Source: Promicromonospora umidemergens
Lineage (GTDB): Bacteria; Actinomycetota; Actinomycetes; Actinomycetales; Cellulomonadaceae
DNA: 64,000 nt
Direction of reading: 5' to 3'
Assembly (NCBI RefSeq): GCF_024171995.1
Contig: NZ_JAMTCT010000003.1
Coordinates: 372,001 to 436,000 of the forward strand
The translations under genes were made by a program, and so were the position numbers. Below the pieces are notes generated by a model. It made no database searches. It was not told where the DNA came from and was given only the letters and a program-made list of their open reading frames with translations. This document shows positions 51,167 through 59,619 of the stretch, piece after piece; the stretch's first letter is position 1; each line of letters begins with the position of its first letter.

Positions 51167-53764
51167 TCAGCGGGTCAGGCCCTCCAGGGAGCCGAAGCAC
51201 ACCAGCGGCGCCGACTCGGTCTCGTCCGCGAGCGCCGCCGCCAGCGCCGCCTCCGGGTCGTCGGTGGCGCGCAGGTGGGCGTGGAACCGCGGCATCACGC
51301 GGGCGGCGACGGCGTCGGACAGCGGGGCGACCGCAGCGACGACGGCGCGGGCGCCGAGCCGCAGGAGCACGGCCGTGAGCCCGAGGACCTCTCCGCCGAG
51401 CACCTGCGACGACCCGCCGACCTCGCACGCCGACAGGATCACCACCGACCCCGGTAGCCGCGTGCCGTCGAGCTCGTGCGCGAACAGCGGCCCGTCGGCC
51501 AGGTCCACGGAGGCGAAGAGCGGGTTGTCGGCGTCGTGCCGGCCGTGGGTCGCCAGGTGCACGATGTCGTGCGTGGCGAGCGCCTCGCGTACGGCCGCCG
51601 TGGTGGCGGACGGGCCGGTGAGGACCGTCGCGCCGGGCCACATCTTGCCCACCGCCCGTACTTCGCTCGCACCGAGGGTCACCCCGGGACCGTGCGCCGC
51701 GAGGAGCCGGTGCCCCTCCCCCGGCCGCGCGTGTGCCCGGCCGCGCGCGACGTAGGAGCGCATGGTGGTGCGCTTGCCCTGCCGGGACGGGAGCGCGGTC
51801 CATGGCACGCCGACCAGCGGGTCCCGGCCCACGACGTACAAGGGGCCGTCCGCTGCCAGGGGCAGGAGGAGGAGCTCGTCGAGCGCGTCGAGGTTACGGG
51901 TCAGGGAGCGGCGGGCGACGTCGCGCAGCGCCGGGGGTACGAGGTCGTTGGCGCACACCCCGAGGTCGGCACGGGCGCGCAGCACCAGCTCGGCGACGTC
52001 GGCCCGTGGGCCCAGGTCCACGGTGCGGGTGCCGTGCGCATCGAGGCGTACGCAGCGCAGGACGCCGTCGAGCACCAGGAAGTTGGCGACCACCGCGCCG
52101 TCGTCGCGGGCGGACAGGAGGCTGCGCACGTCCGCCACGGTGGCGGGGCGCTCCTCGACTGCTGCAGCGTCGGCACCCACGCGGTGCCAGGCGCGTTCGC
52201 GGGCGGTGGCCAGGAGCTTGCCGGAGCGCTCTAACAGGTAGGCGCGCTCGGCCGCGCTCCCCTGGCTCGTGAGCGTGCGGGCCCGGACGAGGAGCCCGCG
52301 GGCCTCCGTGACGAGCGCGCGCACCGCTGGGTCGTCCGGCGCGGCCGCGCCGCCCACCCCCGCGAACGTGGCACGACCGCGTTCGAGTGCCTCGAACAGC
52401 GCATCAGGCTGTCCGGTCCGCGCGGCGGCCTCGACGTCGGTGCGCTGCAGGTCGACACCGTGCGCGGCGGCGGCGGTCACGGACTCCACCGAGCCGAGGC
52501 CCACGCGGTGGTCGGCGAGCAGCCCGAGCCCCAGGCGCACGGCGGCGATGCCCGCATCCCGGTCCCCCGAGGCGAACGCGAGCTGCGCGAGCACCGTCTG
52601 CTGCTGGATCCGCGTGGTCAGCGGGGCGTCGTCCATGCCGTCGGGAAGGCTGTCGAGCACGGCACGGGCCGCCGCGACGTCGTCGGCCAGGAGGTACCAG
52701 TGCGCGGCGACGAAGCGCGCGGTCAGTCCCGGGTGCTGCCCGAGGAGCGGGTCCACCTCGTCGCCGGCCTGCGCCGCTTCGAGCGCCTGCTCGGCGTGGT
52801 GGCGGGCGTCGTGCGGCACGGGGACCTCGCCGCGGCGGACCGGCAGGAGGATCGCCTCCAGCTCCGCGACGTGCGCGACCGCGGCCCGCTGCGGGTGGCC
52901 GACGCCGGCGTAGTACTGCCGGGCGAAGGCCGCCCCGACGCGGGCCTCGTCCCACCGGCGCAGCGCCATGAGGCAGCGGGCGCGGAAGTACTCGGCATCC
53001 GCCCGGTACTGGGCCCGGCCGGGAACGACCATGCGAGAGATCGCCTGGGTGAGGACGCGCTCGGCGTCCTCGAGCAGACCTGCCTCGTAGAGGACGGCGC
53101 CTCGGCCGATGTCGAGCACCCCGTCGGCACGCTCCGGGTCGACGGCGCGGGCGGCCGCCATCGCCTGCAACGCGCCGGGGATGTCGCCGAGCGCGTACCG
53201 CACGAAGCCCATGTTCTGCAGCGCGAGCGAGGCGACACCGGTCAGGTCCGCGCGCACCGCCCGCTCGTGGCAGGCGTCGAAGTCGCGGAGCGCCGCGTCC
53301 AGCCGACCGAGCTCGATCGCTGTAGCACCCCGGTTGAGCAGCGCCACCGCGAGGTCCCGCGGGGGCAGGAGTGCCGGGTCTGCGAGCACGTGGTCGAAGG
53401 CCGCCATGGCATCGGCGTGCCGGCCCGCACGCTGGAGGAGCAGACCGCGCGTCCCCTCGACGACGGCGGCGAGACTCACCCGGGCCGACGACGGCGCGGT
53501 CTCCGCACGGGCGTCGGCGTCCTCGAGGAGCGCCAGCGGCTTGTCGAGCGTGTCCTCGACCGCTTGGAGCGCGACAGCCTCCCCCGCCAGGGAACGCACC
53601 ATGCCCTCGGCCCAGCGCTCGTGGTCCACGGGCCCGAGGCGGTTGGTGTCGATGATCCGAAGCCGGTCGAGCACGTCCCGGAACCGCGGCAGGGCGTCGC
53701 CGGGCCGCGATCGGGAGTTGAGCTCCCGCGCGGCCAGCAGCTCCGCCTCAAGCTCCGGCCACAT
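51167..53764 (-). CDS. CHAT-domain (caspase-like) protein with helical repeats, paralogue A
   Basis: This 865-residue protein starts at the ATG at 53764, preceded by AGGGGGC. Residues ~1-560 are Ala/Leu-rich helical-repeat sequence, TPR-like in style (LNRGATAIELGRLDAALRDF, LGDIPGALQAMAAARAVDP). The C-terminal ~300 residues form a CHAT protease domain. The predicted dyad is His740 in DIVHLATHGRHDADNPLF and Cys780 in SVVILSACEVGGSSQVLGGE. No signal peptide or membrane helix is visible. It is the last gene of the cluster, 155 bases after its paralogue. The substrate is unknown; the S8 protease, regulatory-like protein and sigma factor next door are candidates. Confidence 0.88.
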   Translation of the reverse strand: MWPELEAELLAARELNSRSRPGDALPRFRDVLDRLRIIDTNRLGPVDHERWAEGMVRSLAGEAVALQAVEDTLDKPLALLEDADARAETAPSSARVSLAAVVEGTRGLLLQRAGRHADAMAAFDHVLADPALLPPRDLAVALLNRGATAIELGRLDAALRDFDACHERAVRADLTGVASLALQNMGFVRYALGDIPGALQAMAAARAVDPERADGVLDIGRGAVLYEAGLLEDAERVLTQAISRMVVPGRAQYRADAEYFRARCLMALRRWDEARVGAAFARQYYAGVGHPQRAAVAHVAELEAILLPVRRGEVPVPHDARHHAEQALEAAQAGDEVDPLLGQHPGLTARFVAAHWYLLADDVAAARAVLDSLPDGMDDAPLTTRIQQQTVLAQLAFASGDRDAGIAAVRLGLGLLADHRVGLGSVESVTAAAAHGVDLQRTDVEAAARTGQPDALFEALERGRATFAGVGGAAAPDDPAVRALVTEARGLLVRARTLTSQGSAAERAYLLERSGKLLATARERAWHRVGADAAAVEERPATVADVRSLLSARDDGAVVANFLVLDGVLRCVRLDAHGTRTVDLGPRADVAELVLRARADLGVCANDLVPPALRDVARRSLTRNLDALDELLLLPLAADGPLYVVGRDPLVGVPWTALPSRQGKRTTMRSYVARGRAHARPGEGHRLLAAHGPGVTLGASEVRAVGKMWPGATVLTGPSATTAAVREALATHDIVHLATHGRHDADNPLFASVDLADGPLFAHELDGTRLPGSVVILSACEVGGSSQVLGGEVLGLTAVLLRLGARAVVAAVAPLSDAVAARVMPRFHAHLRATDDPEAALAAALADETESAPLVCFGSLEGLTR

Positions 53765-53919
53765 GTTGCCCCCTAGCCTCTCGGCGCCACCACGGGCGTC
53801 CGCCGGGACACGGTAGCGGGGTGTGCTGGCCCGTGTCACCGACCTGTTCGACGCCGCAGGTCAGGGACGCGGGTTCGGGTGAAGGTTCCAGCTTGGAGCC
53901 AGATTCGCCGGTGCGGGGG

Positions 53920-56532
53920 TCACCCGACCGCGAGGCCCTCGACCGAGCTGAAGCAGACCAGCGGGACCGGTTCCGCCACGTCCTTGAGAGCCGCCGCGAG
54001 CGCCGCCTCCGGGTCGTCAGACTCCCGCAGGTGGGCGTGCAGGCGCGGCATGACACGGGCGGCGAGCTCGTCCGAGAGCTTGGCGACCGACGCGATGACC
54101 GCGCGGGCACCCAGGCGCAGGAGTACCGACGTCAGACCGAGCACCTCGCCACCGAGCACCTGGGTGGAACCGCCGACCTCGCACGACGACAAGATCACCA
54201 CCGAGCCAGGCAGCGGTGTCCCGTCGAGTTCGTGGGCGAACAGCGGACCGTCGGCGAGGTCGATGCTCGCGAAGAGAGGGTTGTCGGCATCGTGCTGGCC
54301 GTGGGTGGCGAGGTGCACGACGTCGTGCGTGGCGAGGGCTTTGCGGACGTGCTCGGTGACGGCGTGGTCTCCGGTCAGCACGGTTGCGCCGGGCCACTGG
54401 CGTCCGACGGCGTGGGCTTCCTCGGTGCCGTGCTTGACGCCAGGTCCGGCCGCCGCAAGCAGGCGGCGCTTGCCGCTCGGGCGGGCGTGGGTTCGGCCCC
54501 TTGCCACGTATGAGTTGACGGCGGTGCGCAGGCCGCTGCGAGACGGGAGCGCCGTCCAGGGGACCCGGAGCAGGGGTTCGCGGGCGACGACGTACAGGTC
54601 GCCGTCGGCGCGGAGCGGGGCGAGCAGGATGGTGTCAAGGGCCCTGAGGTTGCGCTCCAGCGACGCGTTAGCGGCGGCGCGGAGCGGCGCGGGGATCAGG
54701 TCGTTGGCGGCCATGGTGAAGTCGGCGCCTATGCGGCGGATCCGTTCAGTCATCTCTTCCGCCGATCCGAGGTCGACGGTTGTCACGCCCTGGGCGTCCG
54801 ACCGGACACAGCGCAGCTCGCCATCGAGCACCAGGAAGTTGGCCACGACGGCGGTCCTGTCGCTGCGCTCGGAGAGCACGTGGCGCAACTCGCGCGCCGT
54901 GACCGGGCGCTGCACCGCGCCAGCGTTGCCTGCATGCTGCCACGAGCGTTCGCGCACCTCATTCTGAATACGGTGTGCGCGGCGGGTCAGCCGTTCGCGT
55001 TCTTTGGCCCCGGTCGCCCCCAGCTCGCGAGCCTTGGCTAGCAAGCCGCGGGCCTCCGTAAGGAGTGCGGCGGCCTCCGGGTCATCGGGCGGCGTGACAC
55101 GACCTACACCAGAGAAGGTAGAGCGGCCCCGCTCCAGCGCGTCGAACAGCGCGGCGGGCTTTGCCATGCGAGCGGCCGCCGCTACGTCGATGCGAGTCAG
55201 GTCAACGCCATGCGTGGCAGCAGCCGTGACCGACTCGACGGAGCCGAGCTGCGTCCGGTGGTCAGCGAGCAGGTTCAGCCCCGCACGCACTGCGCGCAGG
55301 CCCTTGGCTCGGTTGCGTCCGGCGAACGCGAGCTCCGCCTGGACCGTGTAGTGCTGGACCCGCATGGTCAGCGGGGCGCTCATGAGGCCGCGGGGCAGAT
55401 CGGCCAGTGTGTCGCGGGCCACGTCGAGGTCGCCTGCAAGCAGCAGCCACTGGGCTGCAACGAGGCGGGCCGCATGGCCCGGGTGCTGGCCTAAGACAGG
55501 CCCTGCAGCATCGCCTCTAGCGGCAGCAGCGAGAGCCTGCGCAGCCCGTCGTCGGATTGCGCTGTTCGTCGGCGTATGCACGCCTCGGCGAACTGGAGCC
55601 AGGGATGCCTCAAGCTCCAGGACCCGGGCAAGTACCGCCCATTGCTCGTAGCCTGCGGCGGTGAAGTGGCTGCGCGCTCGAGCAGCAAAGGTCGAGGCCT
55701 CCTCAAAGCGGAGAAGAGCAAGTAGACAACGGGCCCGGACGTACTCCGCGATGGCATGGTCGGTGCGTCGTCCCGCTCTGAGCAACTGCGGGATAGCCTC
55801 GTTCAGCAACGCCTCCGCCTCGTCCAGCAGGCCGACGCCGTACAGCACCTCGGCCCGACCCAACAGCGGAATCCCGTCGTCCTGATCGGGCGCGATCTCC
55901 CGCGCAGCCGCCATCTCCGCAAGCGCCGCGGGGGCATCACCAAGCATGCTCAGGTAGTAGCCGGCGTTGTGTCGTGCGAAGGCCACGAGCACCGGCGAAC
56001 CCGCCGCCTCCGCGTGCCGCACGGCCGCAAGGTCGTCCGACAATGCGCCCTCGACGTCCCCGAGATCGGACAGAGCAAAGGCCCGGTTGAGGTAGGCCAT
56101 CGCAAGGTCTCGCGGCGACCCGGCATCGCTGACCGCGAGCACCTGATCGAAGAGCCGCACCGCTTCTGCCGGCTTCCCTGCGACCCGGAGTAGGAACAAA
56201 CCCCGCTGCCCGGCGGTCACCGCCTCAATGCGCCGGCGTTCCGTCCCGTCGAGCATCTGCGCGGCGTCGAGCGCCCGGTCGAGCGCCCCGAGTGCAGCCG
56301 GAAGGTCCCCCGAGATCGCGAGGTCTGCTTGCGCTAGGCCCATCCAGGACCGCGCGATGAGCCACGTCCAGGTAACTCTGTCGGCGCCGACCACATCGTT
56401 CTCTTTGTGCCAACCCAGATCGCGGAGCAGCGCCTGGAAATCGCGACGAGCGCGACGCGGGCGGGCACGGGTGTTCCAGTCCCGCGCACGCTCGAATCGC
56501 TCCGTGAGCACCTCGAAGCTTTTGCTGCTCAC
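53920..56532 (-). CDS. CHAT-domain (caspase-like) protein with helical repeats, paralogue B
   Basis: This 870-residue protein begins at a GTG (VSSKSFEVLTERFERARDWN) 21 bases after the S8 protease gene. The architecture is the same as paralogue A: helical repeats (LNRAFALSDLGDVEGALSDD, YLSMLGDAPAALAEMAAARE), then CHAT, with His744 in DVVHLATHGQHDADNPLF and Cys784 in SVVILSSCEVGGSTQVLGGE. The last ~250 residues are very similar to A. The N-terminal repeats have diverged more, suggesting that the two sense different partners. Both dyads are intact, so neither copy looks like a decayed duplicate. Confidence 0.88.
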   Translation of the reverse strand: MSSKSFEVLTERFERARDWNTRARPRRARRDFQALLRDLGWHKENDVVGADRVTWTWLIARSWMGLAQADLAISGDLPAALGALDRALDAAQMLDGTERRRIEAVTAGQRGLFLLRVAGKPAEAVRLFDQVLAVSDAGSPRDLAMAYLNRAFALSDLGDVEGALSDDLAAVRHAEAAGSPVLVAFARHNAGYYLSMLGDAPAALAEMAAAREIAPDQDDGIPLLGRAEVLYGVGLLDEAEALLNEAIPQLLRAGRRTDHAIAEYVRARCLLALLRFEEASTFAARARSHFTAAGYEQWAVLARVLELEASLAPVRRGVHTPTNSAIRRRAAQALAAAARGDAAGPVLGQHPGHAARLVAAQWLLLAGDLDVARDTLADLPRGLMSAPLTMRVQHYTVQAELAFAGRNRAKGLRAVRAGLNLLADHRTQLGSVESVTAAATHGVDLTRIDVAAAARMAKPAALFDALERGRSTFSGVGRVTPPDDPEAAALLTEARGLLAKARELGATGAKERERLTRRAHRIQNEVRERSWQHAGNAGAVQRPVTARELRHVLSERSDRTAVVANFLVLDGELRCVRSDAQGVTTVDLGSAEEMTERIRRIGADFTMAANDLIPAPLRAAANASLERNLRALDTILLAPLRADGDLYVVAREPLLRVPWTALPSRSGLRTAVNSYVARGRTHARPSGKRRLLAAAGPGVKHGTEEAHAVGRQWPGATVLTGDHAVTEHVRKALATHDVVHLATHGQHDADNPLFASIDLADGPLFAHELDGTPLPGSVVILSSCEVGGSTQVLGGEVLGLTSVLLRLGARAVIASVAKLSDELAARVMPRLHAHLRESDDPEAALAAALKDVAEPVPLVCFSSVEGLAVG

Positions 56533-56553
56533 CGCGCCCCCCGATTCAGGTCA

Positions 56554-58077
56554 TCACACCGGCACCCCGGGCACCTCCGAGTAGAGATCCCCAACCTGAA
56601 GCACAGCATGCCAGGCATCACCCACACGCCCCGTCGCATCCGAAGCTGGCAATTCGCCAGCCGCACGCCGCGCGTACATCGCCCTCGCCAACTGACCCGC
56701 GAGGTAGGGCGCCGAGAATGAGGTACCGCTCCAGGTCCCGAAGCCATGGGTGAAGTCGTCCCGGTCGACCGCATATCGCAGTCCATCCGCGGTCCGCTCG
56801 CCCTTTGCGGCCCCGTCGAACGTAGTGGGCATGGTGCTCAGGACGTTCACGCCCGGGCGGACTGCCGAGATCCAGGGGCCGTCATTACTGAAGTCAGCCA
56901 GCGTGCCGTCCGGGTTTGACGCGGTCACGCCGAGCAGCGGGGTGTACTCCGGGCACAGGTCGTGCAGATCGCCGGGGATTACCGCGCCACCCGTCCGCCG
57001 GACGGGTGGCGCCCACCCCGCGGGGAACGTCCTGCGCGTGGACCCGTCGTTGCCCGCGGACACCGTAACGAGCACACCCGCCCGCCGCAGATCCCGGAGC
57101 CGGCCGCGGTAGATGCCCTCGTAGTCGTCGTCATCCTCGGGGTGCTCCAGGTAGTAGCCGCTGGCAATTACCACGACGTCGACGGGGAAGCATCCCGGGA
57201 CTCCCGCAAGCCCGCGGAGGTGGAACTCCAGCAGCCGTTCCACGGAACGCGCGAAGTCCCACTCGGAAGCCGTGCCGTCCCCGCCGTACACCCGCACCGG
57301 TAGCAGCGCCGCGTCGGGGCAGATCTGATGGACTACCCCGGCGATGAAAGTGCCGTGTCCGGCATACGGGTCCAGCGGCGAGGCCTCGCCGTCGCGGCGC
57401 CCCTCGCGCTCTGCGTCGAGGTCATCCTCAGGATAGGTACCGATGGGCCGGCCGTCGAGCGCCGCGTCGCGAAGCACCACGGTTCCCGGCGCGTCGAACC
57501 AGGGGTGCCGCCCAAGTCCCGTGTCCAGGATCGCGACCACGGGCCGGTTGACGCCTTCAAAGGTCACCAGGGGCGACGCACCGTCGGCCTTGCGGACGGG
57601 AGCGGCACCCGGATACGTGGCAGGCACCCGCTTGTCCGGATCGCCGAAGCCCCCATTGTTCCGGTGGCCAGTGACCACGTGGTCCAGCGACACCCGCTTG
57701 CGGTCGTCCCCCGCGTCCTCCGCCACAGCCGCCATCAGCCCCAGCGCGTCCCAGTCGTCCCGCACGTCGTCGAGCCGCACCTCAACATCGGGCCGCGCCC
57801 CCAGGACATCAGCGTCCCCACGCGACGGCGCCTGCTGGAAGTCCCCCGTCGTGACTGAGACGCCGTTCTCCCGAGCGCGAGTCGTGATGAGGTCGAGGAG
57901 CGCGTCGTTCCCGCTCTCGGGATTACCACGGACGATCACCCGGTCACGGACGTAGCGAGTCGGCGCGATCCGGCCTCCACCGGGGATCTGGTCGGTCGCC
58001 GGATCCAGCTCCCGAACCGGCCGCCACCCTCCGGCGTGGTCCCGGACGTGCATTCCCTCGGGCATGGGCTCACTCAC
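56554..58077 (-). CDS. S8 family (subtilisin-like) serine protease without signal peptide
   Basis: This 507-residue protein carries a complete catalytic set. Asp185 is in VVAILDTGLGRHPWFD, His241 in AGHGTFIAGVVHQICPDA, Asn343 in TVSAGNDGSTRRTF and Ser453 in WSGTSFSAPYLAGQLA. The N-terminus is hydrophilic (MSEPMPEGMHVRDHAGGWRP), so it is probably cytosolic. The first ~170 residues are a separate region that could be a prodomain or a partner-binding domain. Its stop is 21 bases from the CHAT-B start, and 84 bases separate its start from the regulatory-like gene upstream. The pairing with CHAT proteases suggests one activates or degrades the other; that is inference. Confidence 0.9.
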   Translation of the reverse strand: MSEPMPEGMHVRDHAGGWRPVRELDPATDQIPGGGRIAPTRYVRDRVIVRGNPESGNDALLDLITTRARENGVSVTTGDFQQAPSRGDADVLGARPDVEVRLDDVRDDWDALGLMAAVAEDAGDDRKRVSLDHVVTGHRNNGGFGDPDKRVPATYPGAAPVRKADGASPLVTFEGVNRPVVAILDTGLGRHPWFDAPGTVVLRDAALDGRPIGTYPEDDLDAEREGRRDGEASPLDPYAGHGTFIAGVVHQICPDAALLPVRVYGGDGTASEWDFARSVERLLEFHLRGLAGVPGCFPVDVVVIASGYYLEHPEDDDDYEGIYRGRLRDLRRAGVLVTVSAGNDGSTRRTFPAGWAPPVRRTGGAVIPGDLHDLCPEYTPLLGVTASNPDGTLADFSNDGPWISAVRPGVNVLSTMPTTFDGAAKGERTADGLRYAVDRDDFTHGFGTWSGTSFSAPYLAGQLARAMYARRAAGELPASDATGRVGDAWHAVLQVGDLYSEVPGVPV

Positions 58078-58161
58078 AGCAGTACCTCTCCATCGATAGA
58101 CGCACTCGGCCGACCTTGCCGCGCCCCCTCGGCAGGGTCAGGGTTCCAACAGTTCAGAAGT

Positions 58162-58722
58162 TCAGAGCTCAATCACCGGCGTGCTCACGGCGCCGCCACC
58201 GCCGTCGGTCCGGCGGACCACCAGGCTCGCGCGCCCGCGTTCGACGGAGTCGAAGGCGAACCGGCCGTCCTCGTCGGAGGCGGCCGTGACGACGTCGGCC
58301 CCCGGTCGGTGCAGCTCCACGTCCAGCCCGGCCGCGGGAGCGGCCCAGCCGTCGATCCGTACCCGGCCGCCGGCGGACGGGGACAGGCTGATCATGACGG
58401 TCAGCGAGTCGTGCGTGAAGGTGATGGTCTTGGCCTCGGCCGGCGCGGTGTCGTCAGCGCGTGCGGCCGCGGCGGCCCCCCGGACGCCCGCGAGCGGCGT
58501 GTCGAGGTAGACGGCCTCCATCAGGTCGGCCTCCAGGCCGGCCAGCGTGATCGCGAACAGCGACCGCTCGACGAGATCGCTCGGAACCGGGTCGACCGCC
58601 TCTACCAGGTGGGCGAGGCGCGTCAGGAGGAGACCGTCCTCGGCGTCCAGCCGGCCCTTCGGGTCGAACGAGAGGTCCCCCATGGCCCCTTCGTCCTTGT
58701 TCGGTTCCGGCGTCAGGTCCAC
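58162..58722 (-). CDS. Small protein with carboxypeptidase-regulatory-like beta domain, overlapping the sigma factor gene
   Basis: A 186-residue protein from the GTG at 58722, which overlaps the end of the sigma gene by 10 bases and has GGGGA upstream. Residues ~20-72 are a helical unit (RLDAEDGLLLTRLAHLVEAV, then SDLVERSLFAITLAGLEADL). Residues ~98-186 look like a beta-sandwich of the carboxypeptidase-regulatory/Ig-like type (SLTVMISLSPSAGGRVRIDG, ASDEDGRFAFDSVERGRASL). It has no membrane segment. The position is that of an anti-sigma factor, but I see no zinc-anti-sigma HxxxCxxC motif, so the role is open. Confidence 0.72.
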   Translation of the reverse strand: MDLTPEPNKDEGAMGDLSFDPKGRLDAEDGLLLTRLAHLVEAVDPVPSDLVERSLFAITLAGLEADLMEAVYLDTPLAGVRGAAAAARADDTAPAEAKTITFTHDSLTVMISLSPSAGGRVRIDGWAAPAAGLDVELHRPGADVVTAASDEDGRFAFDSVERGRASLVVRRTDGGGGAVSTPVIEL

Positions 58723-59465
58723 GAGAAGTCCCCCTGCTCGTCGAGGATGGTGCGCAGCTTTGCCAAGCAGCGGCCACGAGTCGAGCCGATGGAACCCATC
58801 GGCATTCCGATCGCCGCCGAGATGTACCGGTAGTCCGGACGGTCGGCGAGCGAGACCAGACGCAGCAGCTCTTGGCAGCGTCCGGGTAGTTTCTGGAGCG
58901 ACATCCACAGGAGGCGATCACGTTCGTCGCGCAGCACCTCGGCGTCCGGCAGCGGATCCTTCGAGGGAAGCGCCATCGGGTGCTCCGGACTGTCGTCCGG
59001 GAGCTCGGTGCGACGCTTCTCGTCGTCACGGTGCTTGCGCACGGCCTCCCAGGCAGCGCGCTTGGCCGTGACCAGGAGCCACTTCAGCACGGCCTTCGGC
59101 TCCGCGATCGACTCGGCGTGCCGCACGAGCGCGACCCAGGTGCTCTGCACCACGTCCTCGGCGGCGTCGGGTTCGACGCCCTGCGCGCGGACCGTGTGCC
59201 ACAGCAGCGGCGTCGCCTCGCGGACCAGGCCACCGAGTGCCTGGTGGTTGCCCTCGCGGTACTCGGTCAAGGCGATCGCAGCGCGATCGCCGAGCGTGAG
59301 CCCAGGCCCGTCGACGTCGGGCAGGGCCTCCCTTGATCCTGTCATTGCACCACGGGATTCTCTGCTGGCGGATGTGTCCAGGTCCGGTAGGGGACGAGGA
59401 GTACTTGAACCAGCCGAGTCTACGGCCGAGACTGCGGATCCGGGGAGGTAGAAGACGGTGCCCAT
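58713..59465 (-). CDS. ECF-like RNA polymerase sigma factor
   Basis: This 250-residue sigma-70-family protein has region 2 around AEDVVQSTWVALVRHAESIA EPKAVLKWLLVTAKRAAWEA (residues ~95-140) and region 4 at RDRLLWMSLQKLPGRCQELL to ISAAIGMPMGSIGSTRGRCL. The last ~10 residues EQGDFSWT overlap the next gene. The ATG at 59465 has GGGGAG six bases upstream; the ATG at 59345 is an alternative. First gene of the sigma - regulatory-like - S8 - CHAT - CHAT unit, probably its transcriptional driver. Its promoter was not identified. Confidence 0.88.
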   Translation of the reverse strand: MGTVFYLPGSAVSAVDSAGSSTPRPLPDLDTSASRESRGAMTGSREALPDVDGPGLTLGDRAAIALTEYREGNHQALGGLVREATPLLWHTVRAQGVEPDAAEDVVQSTWVALVRHAESIAEPKAVLKWLLVTAKRAAWEAVRKHRDDEKRRTELPDDSPEHPMALPSKDPLPDAEVLRDERDRLLWMSLQKLPGRCQELLRLVSLADRPDYRYISAAIGMPMGSIGSTRGRCLAKLRTILDEQGDFSWT

Positions 59466-59561
59466 CAGGCACTCCCCTCTCCTCGATGCGCGTCGGCACG
59501 GTGCCGCTCACCAGACAAGAGGGACGAACGCCAAGTTCGATACATAGCGCTGACCACAAAT

Positions 59562-59593
59562 CAAAAAGACCCGCACCCCCTTGGGGATGCGGG
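59562..59593 (-). terminator. Rho-independent terminator of nusG-rplK-rplA
   Basis: On the minus strand a CCCGCATCCCC / GGGGGTGCGGG stem (59570-59593, one bulge, 2-base loop) is followed by CTTTTTG. It begins ~25 bases after the rplA stop. This is the only terminator in the window with a convincing U-tract, and it isolates rplA from the sigma-CHAT cluster. Confidence 0.88.
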
Positions 59594-59619
59594 CCTTCTC
59601 GCGCTCAGGAGCGCTCGGT

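Follow-up and report, generated by a model that had tools for sequence, protein, structure and literature searches.

Do five neighbouring genes of Promicromonospora umidemergens, which encode a sigma factor, a small protein and three proteases, form one regulatory system, and could the proteases govern the sigma factor? The genes lie in a stretch of 64,000 nucleotides (assembly GCF_024171995.1, contig NZ_JAMTCT010000003.1, positions 372,001 to 436,000), here called the window, and the coordinates below count from its first letter. In transcription order they encode, all on the minus strand, an extracytoplasmic function (ECF) type sigma factor, a protein of 186 residues that we call R186, a leaderless subtilase of family S8, and two proteins, CHAT-A and CHAT-B, that join tetratricopeptide repeats (TPRs) to a CHAT protease domain. 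The five genes are part of a conserved module found across Actinomycetota, whose core is sigma, R186 and CHAT, with S8 as a frequent accessory. Our preferred explanation, to which we give a probability of about 0.5, is a cytoplasmic, CRISPR-free switch in which a protease gates the sigma factor: CHAT would cut R186 and thereby free sigma, which would then drive its own module.

An original prediction, made from the sequence alone, had placed the five genes on one strand, and all five open reading frames were found there, with domains recognised by Pfam and NCBIfam. The features on which the argument turns are as follows.

59519..59545, minus strand: two-box promoter-like site ATGTATC-N17-CTC, 5' of the sigma gene (motif statistics and conservation)
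58713..59465, minus strand: ECF-type sigma factor, 250 amino acids (TIGR02937 8.1e-16, Sigma70_r2 4.2e-8)
58162..58722, minus strand: R186, candidate soluble sigma regulator and protease substrate (structure model and homologs in the module)
58480..58482, minus strand: codon of R186 Arg81, candidate scissile or docking residue
56554..58077, minus strand: S8 subtilase, leaderless, 507 amino acids, accessory member (PF00082 1.2e-17)
53920..56532, minus strand: CHAT-A, TPR superhelix and CHAT protease, 870 amino acids (PF12770 6.3e-26 plus TPRs)
54301-54303 and 54181-54183, minus strand: CHAT-A catalytic codons, His744 and Cys784, respectively
51167..53839, minus strand: CHAT-B, tandem paralogue of CHAT-A, 890 amino acids (PF12770 1.2e-24 plus TPRs)

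Conservation and composition of the module

Of 99 related genomes, 55 encode relatives of CHAT-A, among them 13/13 of the genus, and hidden Markov models (HMMs) built from the loci showed sigma, R186, S8 and CHAT to be grouped in many neighbourhoods. Among 85 typed places of R186, from which 10 loci repeating counted genomes (L071-L077, L080-L082) are omitted, the sigma gene immediately precedes R186 in 78, and one of the 7 exceptions, L060, is caused by overlapping matches; 74 places have CHAT within 10 kb, 68 have S8 and 65 have all four genes. The loci had been picked either via CHAT or via R186, hence the two sets were also counted separately. The 40 CHAT-selected loci hold 37 R186 places, with sigma directly upstream on the same strand in 36, CHAT in 37, S8 in 32 and all four in 31; three of these loci (L041, L047, L049) have no R186 nearby, and it is present elsewhere in the genomes of two (G093, G077). 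In the R186-selected set, which comprises 31 typed places in 30 loci and only the fetched part of the R186 matches, sigma is directly upstream on the same strand in 26, CHAT is near in 23 and S8 in 22. Scattering of the genes among relatives, which the original prediction named as a refutation, is mostly not seen, all four gene types standing together at 21 of these 31 places, while in some genomes they are unlinked. The gene orders include sigma-R186-S8-CHAT (21 loci), the same with a second CHAT (15), and a divergent CHAT with S8-sigma-R186 (8, four of them from one genus with genomes of 7.8-9.7 Mb).

R186 and CHAT also go together by genome. In 296 phylum-wide genomes, with cut-offs of E<=1e-40 for CHAT and E<=1e-6 for R186, CHAT occurs in 37 and R186 in 38, with both in 36 of the 39 genomes that have either and neither in 257 (Fisher p 9.5e-43, an overstatement as discussed below). 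The single-partner genomes are one with CHAT only (G243, a partial match) and two with R186 only (G361, in 590 contigs, and G105, where the match is weak and partial). Among the 99 relatives, with R186 counted at E<1e-20, both are present in 53, CHAT only in 2 (G033 and G075, in 200 and 450 contigs), R186 only in 0 and neither in 44; at E<=0.001 R186 is recorded in 57 genomes, the matches in the additional G030, G040, G063 and G067, all without CHAT, being weak and partial. Of the R186-selected places, 8 in 7 genomes have no CHAT within 10 kb, and 6 of these genomes carry a full-length CHAT elsewhere. In the unlinked modules, sigma stays beside R186 in 7/11 places (L116, L119, L123, L124, L165-L167) and R186 stands by itself in four (L115, L126, L128, L135), while S8 adjoins CHAT in 4 of the 7 unlinked CHAT places (L161-L164, not L160, L047 or L049).

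The five-gene unit of the original prediction does not hold up as such. Because R186 and CHAT go together by genome and S8 is missing from some near-complete genomes, we take the core to be sigma, R186 and CHAT. An essential role of S8 was considered and rejected, as three genomes of the family with 99% completeness (G017, G020, G051) keep sigma-R186-CHAT without a clear S8. The first S8 profile (A5) found none in these three, yet it also missed the known divergent S8 of G027; profile A6, which includes divergent members and recovers the G027 protein at 8.5e-78, leaves G020 and G051 without a match at E<=1e-5 and yields just a 34.8-bit partial match in G017. The leaderless subtilisin with an intact Asp/His/Asn/Ser set was correctly recognised from the sequence: a crude scan finds no signal peptide, and D185, H241, N343 and S453 are invariant in 61/61 aligned rows. 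Twin CHATs were likewise rejected as the unit. CHAT-B is 56% identical to CHAT-A with invariant His/Cys columns, and the pair goes back to one tandem duplication in the Promicromonospora-Antribacter-Myceligenerans line (FastTree; support 0.993 for CHAT-B and 0.829 for the CHAT-A side), with Myceligenerans lacking CHAT-B. In L055 and L073, both of G009, the CHAT genes are broken into frames of 752 and 270 amino acids, compared with two full CHATs in relatives, which may be a pseudogene or an assembly fault.

A replacement effector was also considered near the R186 places without CHAT and in L042 and L044, and none of the 20 proteins scanned there was convincing; they comprise one ECF sigma factor with a SnoaL-like domain, four unmatched proteins and otherwise ordinary ones (metabolism, transport, cell wall, HD domain, transposase). 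In L128 (8613-9611, 9640-10134), an R186 relative without the usual sigma stands tail to tail with an ECF sigma bearing a SnoaL-like domain, and its genome, G139, has three R186 matches. A tandem double module on one strand, S8-CHAT-R186 followed by S8-CHAT-sigma-R186, is present in L113 (G192), and a DDE transposase lies near the split sigma-R186 unit of L123 (12110-13342).

R186 and its linker arginine

The label "regulatory-like" in the original prediction undersold R186, which is sigma-linked, co-occurs with CHAT and carries an invariant arginine. In its structure model (mean predicted local distance difference test, pLDDT, 84; predicted template modelling score, pTM, 0.56), only two helices (27-43 and 50-71) precede a stretch without regular structure (72-97), and a beta-sandwich follows from residue 98. 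Mean pLDDT falls to 50-51 over residues 71-90 and block means reach 93-98 from residue 101, so the linker is probably disordered. Arg81 within this linker is identical in 60/60 rows of alignment A2, which omits R186 matches at E>1e-20 and most near-identical genus rows, and its context is mostly V-R-[GSAT]. Elsewhere in the linker, 14 columns are filled by 54 letters or more, and there the most frequent residue accounts for 0.22-0.77 (median 0.38; Val80 is the best), while the remaining columns have more gaps; the further 60/60 columns Gly125, Gly153 and Phe155 are all in the beta-sandwich. An HMM alignment of the 85 R186 places has arginine in the Arg81 column in 80, and the other five have one 2-5 residues further along, with G, A, S or T next. 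As an invariant residue in a variable, probably disordered linker that joins two folded halves, Arg81 is a candidate scissile or docking site. Clan CD proteases such as separase and the metacaspases often cut after arginine.

The only named family touched by R186 is CarboxypepD_reg (1e-4, 23 bits), which stays under the curated cut-off of 32.3, and the PDB matches listed include only generic beta folds.

The CHAT proteins

The twin helical-repeat CHAT proteins with intact His and Cys were described correctly in the original prediction, as PF12770 and TPRs are recognised in both and His744 and Cys784 are invariant in 62/62 rows. Asp821 is kept in 61/62, in the region where separase presumably has its acidic S1 residue. 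The CHAT-A model (pLDDT 93.5) is a helical TPR-like superhelix with the CHAT domain at its end. A Foldseek search with this model placed separase first (9hma, 7.7e-15), followed by the Csx29/TPR-CHAT subunit of Craspase (8eey_B, 5.5e-14; 7y84_C, 7.9e-13) and DdvA (8rw5, 5.4e-12).

Sequence comparison ranks these relatives differently. While the single CHAT-A sequence gave no match among PDB sequences, a profile of the CHAT domain found DdvA best (9.5e-13), then the Craspase TPR-CHAT (8d9f_A, 2.8e-9) and Csx29 (7y9x_B, 7.1e-6), with separase sequences weak (0.0017-0.0075). The curated Csx29 model scores just 16.3 and 16.5 bits on the window CHATs against a cut-off of 300.

A promoter-like motif shared by the module

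TGTATC is the most enriched hexamer 5' of the sigma gene, with 33 of the 80 regions (each at most 480 bases long) containing it where 1.5 would be expected. Extended to GTATC-N17-CTC, the motif is found in 41 of the 80 regions against 0.18 expected from shuffles, and N17 is the preferred spacing (N16 in 0, N18 in 6, N19 in 8 and no other in more than 3). It also occurs upstream of S8 in 12/73 regions (0.12 expected) and upstream of CHAT in 1/100 (0.18 expected). Outside Promicromonospora, 29 of 67 sigma regions carry the strict form. Counted per locus, before sigma or S8, the strict form is present in 53/84 (0.28 in shuffles) and a loose form in 64/84 (2.26 in shuffles). In split genomes the strict form precedes 3/4 sigma units (5/7 when L165-L167 are included) and 2/4 CHAT-S8 units, and the loose form 4/4 and 3/4, respectively; in G181 and G256 the strict motif stands on both halves of the split module. 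The sigma factor that recognises this promoter is probably the module's own.

The whole 64-kb window contains one GTATC-N17-CTC (59519-59543) against 0.72 expected by chance, so that the case for this site rests on its position and conservation. Across the 13 genus genomes ATGTATC-N17-CTC occurs at 35 sites, 12 of which are the module promoter, with one extra base between the boxes in G002. Of the 23 other sites 19 were inspected, and none of these precedes a clearly conserved gene. One site recurs in four genomes, antisense beside a gene that is ftsH-like by its first residues, and L174 (G012) and L189 (G008) share a matching intergenic site at about position 1500, both in Promicromonospora, where the alignment ends just after it and there is no common downstream gene.

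Two other motif candidates were not retained. An ECF-like motif from the genus alignment, GAAC-N16..20-GTCTG, was dropped, being found in 7 upstream regions, all from the genus. Gapped 4-mer pairs were not clearly above shuffles, though GTAT-N17-CCTC topped their list, and hexamer enrichment then gave GTATC-N17-CTC.

Relation to known systems

A 2022 review (PMC8999054, section 3.3) describes ECF54 sigma factors adjoining carboxypeptidase-, subtilase- and CHAT-domain proteins and notes that proteolytic control was proposed; the section deals with a mechanism seen chiefly in Actinobacteria. In the window, too, an ECF sigma is accompanied by these three domains (the carboxypeptidase-regulatory-like match of R186 is below its cut-off, and the sigma is matched by a generic ECF model); its module is very probably the one described there, and probably of the ECF54 type. 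The idea that proteases control the sigma factor, which the original prediction had put forward, was thus right in outline and already proposed. As far as that section goes, it contains no linker arginine of R186, minimal core, CHAT fold, promoter motif or anti-sigma factor; added here are the three-gene core, the linker arginine, the separase/Csx29-like CHAT fold and the promoter motif. In the largely open-access literature searched nothing on ECF54 beyond PMC8999054 was found, and the listed literature on CHAT and sigma factors, with most subscription papers outside its scope, includes no dedicated study of the module.

The closest functional parallel is the type III-E Craspase, in which Csx29 cuts Csx30, a sigma inhibitor, at a locus that, in the part of PMC10028731 relied on here, holds binding motifs for its own sigma factor. 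The two share a TPR-CHAT protease with a His/Cys dyad, a regulator and an ECF sigma (CASP-sigma in Craspase). They differ in that R186 has no Csx30 counterpart among the matches listed and a subtilase is usually added. The CRISPR independence and the tie of the proteases to sigma that had been predicted are supported by the conserved module: no cas gene is among the genes typed in it, and Cas1 is absent in 13/13 genus genomes, in a search whose control was positive in 9/14 known genomes and which did not extend to Cas7-11 and arrays.

DdvA (PDB 8rw5, 8rot) is likewise a CHAT protein tied to sigma and the top PDB sequence match, with His and Cys aligned; one of its chains is titled transmembrane anti-sigma factor, whereas by a crude scan the CHAT here is a soluble protein, and control of sigma would lie in a separate small one. 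Separase, the top Foldseek match of the CHAT model (TM-score 0.34 by query), is in contrast a eukaryotic cohesin protease with weak profile sequence matches. Comparable arrangements are the CalpL-CalpT-CalpS system and, in type III CRISPR, the SAVED-CHAT/PCaspase cascade. Caspase-fold proteases beside sigma factors, not of the TPR-CHAT kind and with other partners, are described as metacaspase operons with sigma70 genes in Myxococcus and relatives (PMC3501461) and as ECF, TPR and EACC2-caspase neighbourhoods (PMC8195603), insofar as the parts of these sources used here go; the part of PMC8103513 consulted has nothing bearing on the module.

Proposed mechanism and alternatives

We propose that R186 holds the sigma factor, likely as a stoichiometric pair because their genes overlap. 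The TPR part of CHAT would sense a signal, whereupon CHAT would cut R186 at or beside Arg81 and part the two-helix half from the beta-sandwich half. Once free, sigma would start transcription of the module that encodes it at the TGTATC-N17-CTC promoter, which would amplify the response. The subtilase would have an accessory part, completing the breakdown of R186, processing CHAT or resetting the system. Cutting of R186 by CHAT appears the likeliest scheme because of the analogy with Craspase, in which Csx29 cuts the sigma inhibitor.

Several observations weigh against this proposal. In the section of PMC8999054 considered here, control is described without an anti-sigma factor. R186 has no known anti-sigma domain in Pfam, NCBIfam or the PDB matches listed, and no Csx30 chain is among its 9 PDB sequence matches or the best 50 of 829 Foldseek matches, so that it is filed as neither. 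Arg81 is kept where CHAT is not nearby and is thus not proved to be the site of CHAT; it may instead act in docking or inhibition, or be used by S8. Among the best 30 Foldseek matches of CHAT-A, those to separase, Csx29 and DdvA have low TM-scores by query (0.29-0.49), and the fold match is one of parts and general layout. Sigma is not near R186 at the four places where R186 stands by itself, and in L042 it is on the opposite strand. Kinship among the genomes inflates the counts, and the CHAT profile A3, for which CHAT pieces of <780 residues and several near-identical rows were set aside, draws in part on CHATs adjoining R186, hence the co-occurrence p-values are overstated; the E-value cut-offs were also of our own choosing. 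As for the promoter, 20/84 loci are without even the loose motif, 12 of the 41 strict sigma sites come from Promicromonospora (12 of its 13 loci), and the strict motif also precedes R186 in 6/85 regions (0.06 expected), for which we have no explanation.

The main rival accounts for the same arginine. Securin, the partner of separase, is an inhibitor, and R186 could analogously be a securin-like inhibitor or pseudosubstrate that places its linker arginine in the CHAT active site, with sigma merely transcribing the module and activated CHAT cutting other proteins. The co-occurrence of R186 with CHAT and the invariant linker residue fit this equally, and separase is the top fold match, but sigma is slightly more tightly linked to R186 than CHAT is (26 against 23 of the 31 R186-selected places) and stays with R186 in 7/11 unlinked places; we regard it as unlikely, if a serious contender. 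The reverse logic, following what the literature summarises for ECF54, is that the proteases degrade sigma itself to keep the system off; R186 would then be a scaffold or substrate adaptor. This leaves the invariant arginine and the co-occurrence of R186 and CHAT without a direct explanation, and we consider it improbable.

Defence systems include proteases of the CHAT and subtilase types, and the CHAT here resembles the Craspase TPR-CHAT, so a phage signal might activate CHAT, which would cut cell targets and be raised via sigma until growth stops. PADLOC gave matches for subtilase (4e-10), BovA (5.2e-5 and 7.4e-4) and Csm3 (0.0029), none of them strong and all partial (with neighbouring genes outside the scan for defence families), and PHROGs only generic ones. 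Unlike a mobile defence island, the module adjoins rplA in 28/29 fetched loci of the family of the window (only L042, a second copy in G027, does not fit), and 13/13 genus genomes have CHAT; an antiphage or suicide function thus seems about as improbable as degradation of sigma, or marginally more so. The original prediction had left defence, stress and development side by side, and this stable place beside rplA together with presence throughout the genus sample favours a resident stress or developmental switch. That the genes are independent neighbours without joint function would agree with the varying order and orientation among distant relatives. It is contradicted, also allowing for genome relatedness, by the co-occurrence, which is kept when the genes are unlinked, and by the motif shared by both halves of the split modules in G181 and G256, and we give it next to no weight.

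Under the protease-gated sigma switch, a known but apparently untested gene neighbourhood becomes a defined circuit of a three-gene core, one residue and one promoter. If it is true, protease-released sigma factors with a TPR-CHAT protease are widespread without CRISPR, bacterial caspase-fold proteases are tied to ordinary transcription control, and a simple natural protease-to-transcription switch is at hand. More tentatively, and on balance doubtfully, the chromosomes of Actinomycetota might encode a CRISPR-free counterpart to the Craspase branch, with an ECF sigma, a cleavable R186 whose invariant linker arginine is scissile and a separase-like TPR-CHAT, and this could be the stock from which the TPR-CHAT, substrate and sigma of type III-E came.

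Genomic setting and further observations

The cluster is flanked by rplK-rplA (L11, L1) and rplJ-rplL-rpoB (L10, L7/L12 and the RNA polymerase beta subunit), a setting missing from the original prediction. One feature separates the ribosomal genes from the module, whose promoter-like site lies beyond it.

59562..59597, minus strand: intrinsic terminator 3' of rplKA (hairpin of -27.3 kcal/mol, z -5.25, followed by UUUUU)

This hairpin is kept in 12 aligned genus sequences. The predicted 10-base overlap between the sigma end and the R186 start is exact, while the gaps given as 21-155 bases need correction: the internal spacings are -10, 84, 21 and 80 bases, and the 154 bases belong to the interval between sigma and rplA. 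None of the five window proteins has a signal peptide or membrane segment by a crude hydropathy scan, and among their relatives a hydropathy window of at least 1.9 is reached in 6/86 CHAT proteins and in 0/61 S8, 0/70 R186 and 0/71 sigma proteins. The closest relatives of the subtilase are in Promicromonospora species, then in Myceligenerans and Antribacter (12 loci). In five relatives (L051, L059, L061, L063, L066) a frame of 440-481 amino acids without identity is sandwiched by rplA and the sigma gene, which points to an insertion-tolerant spot.

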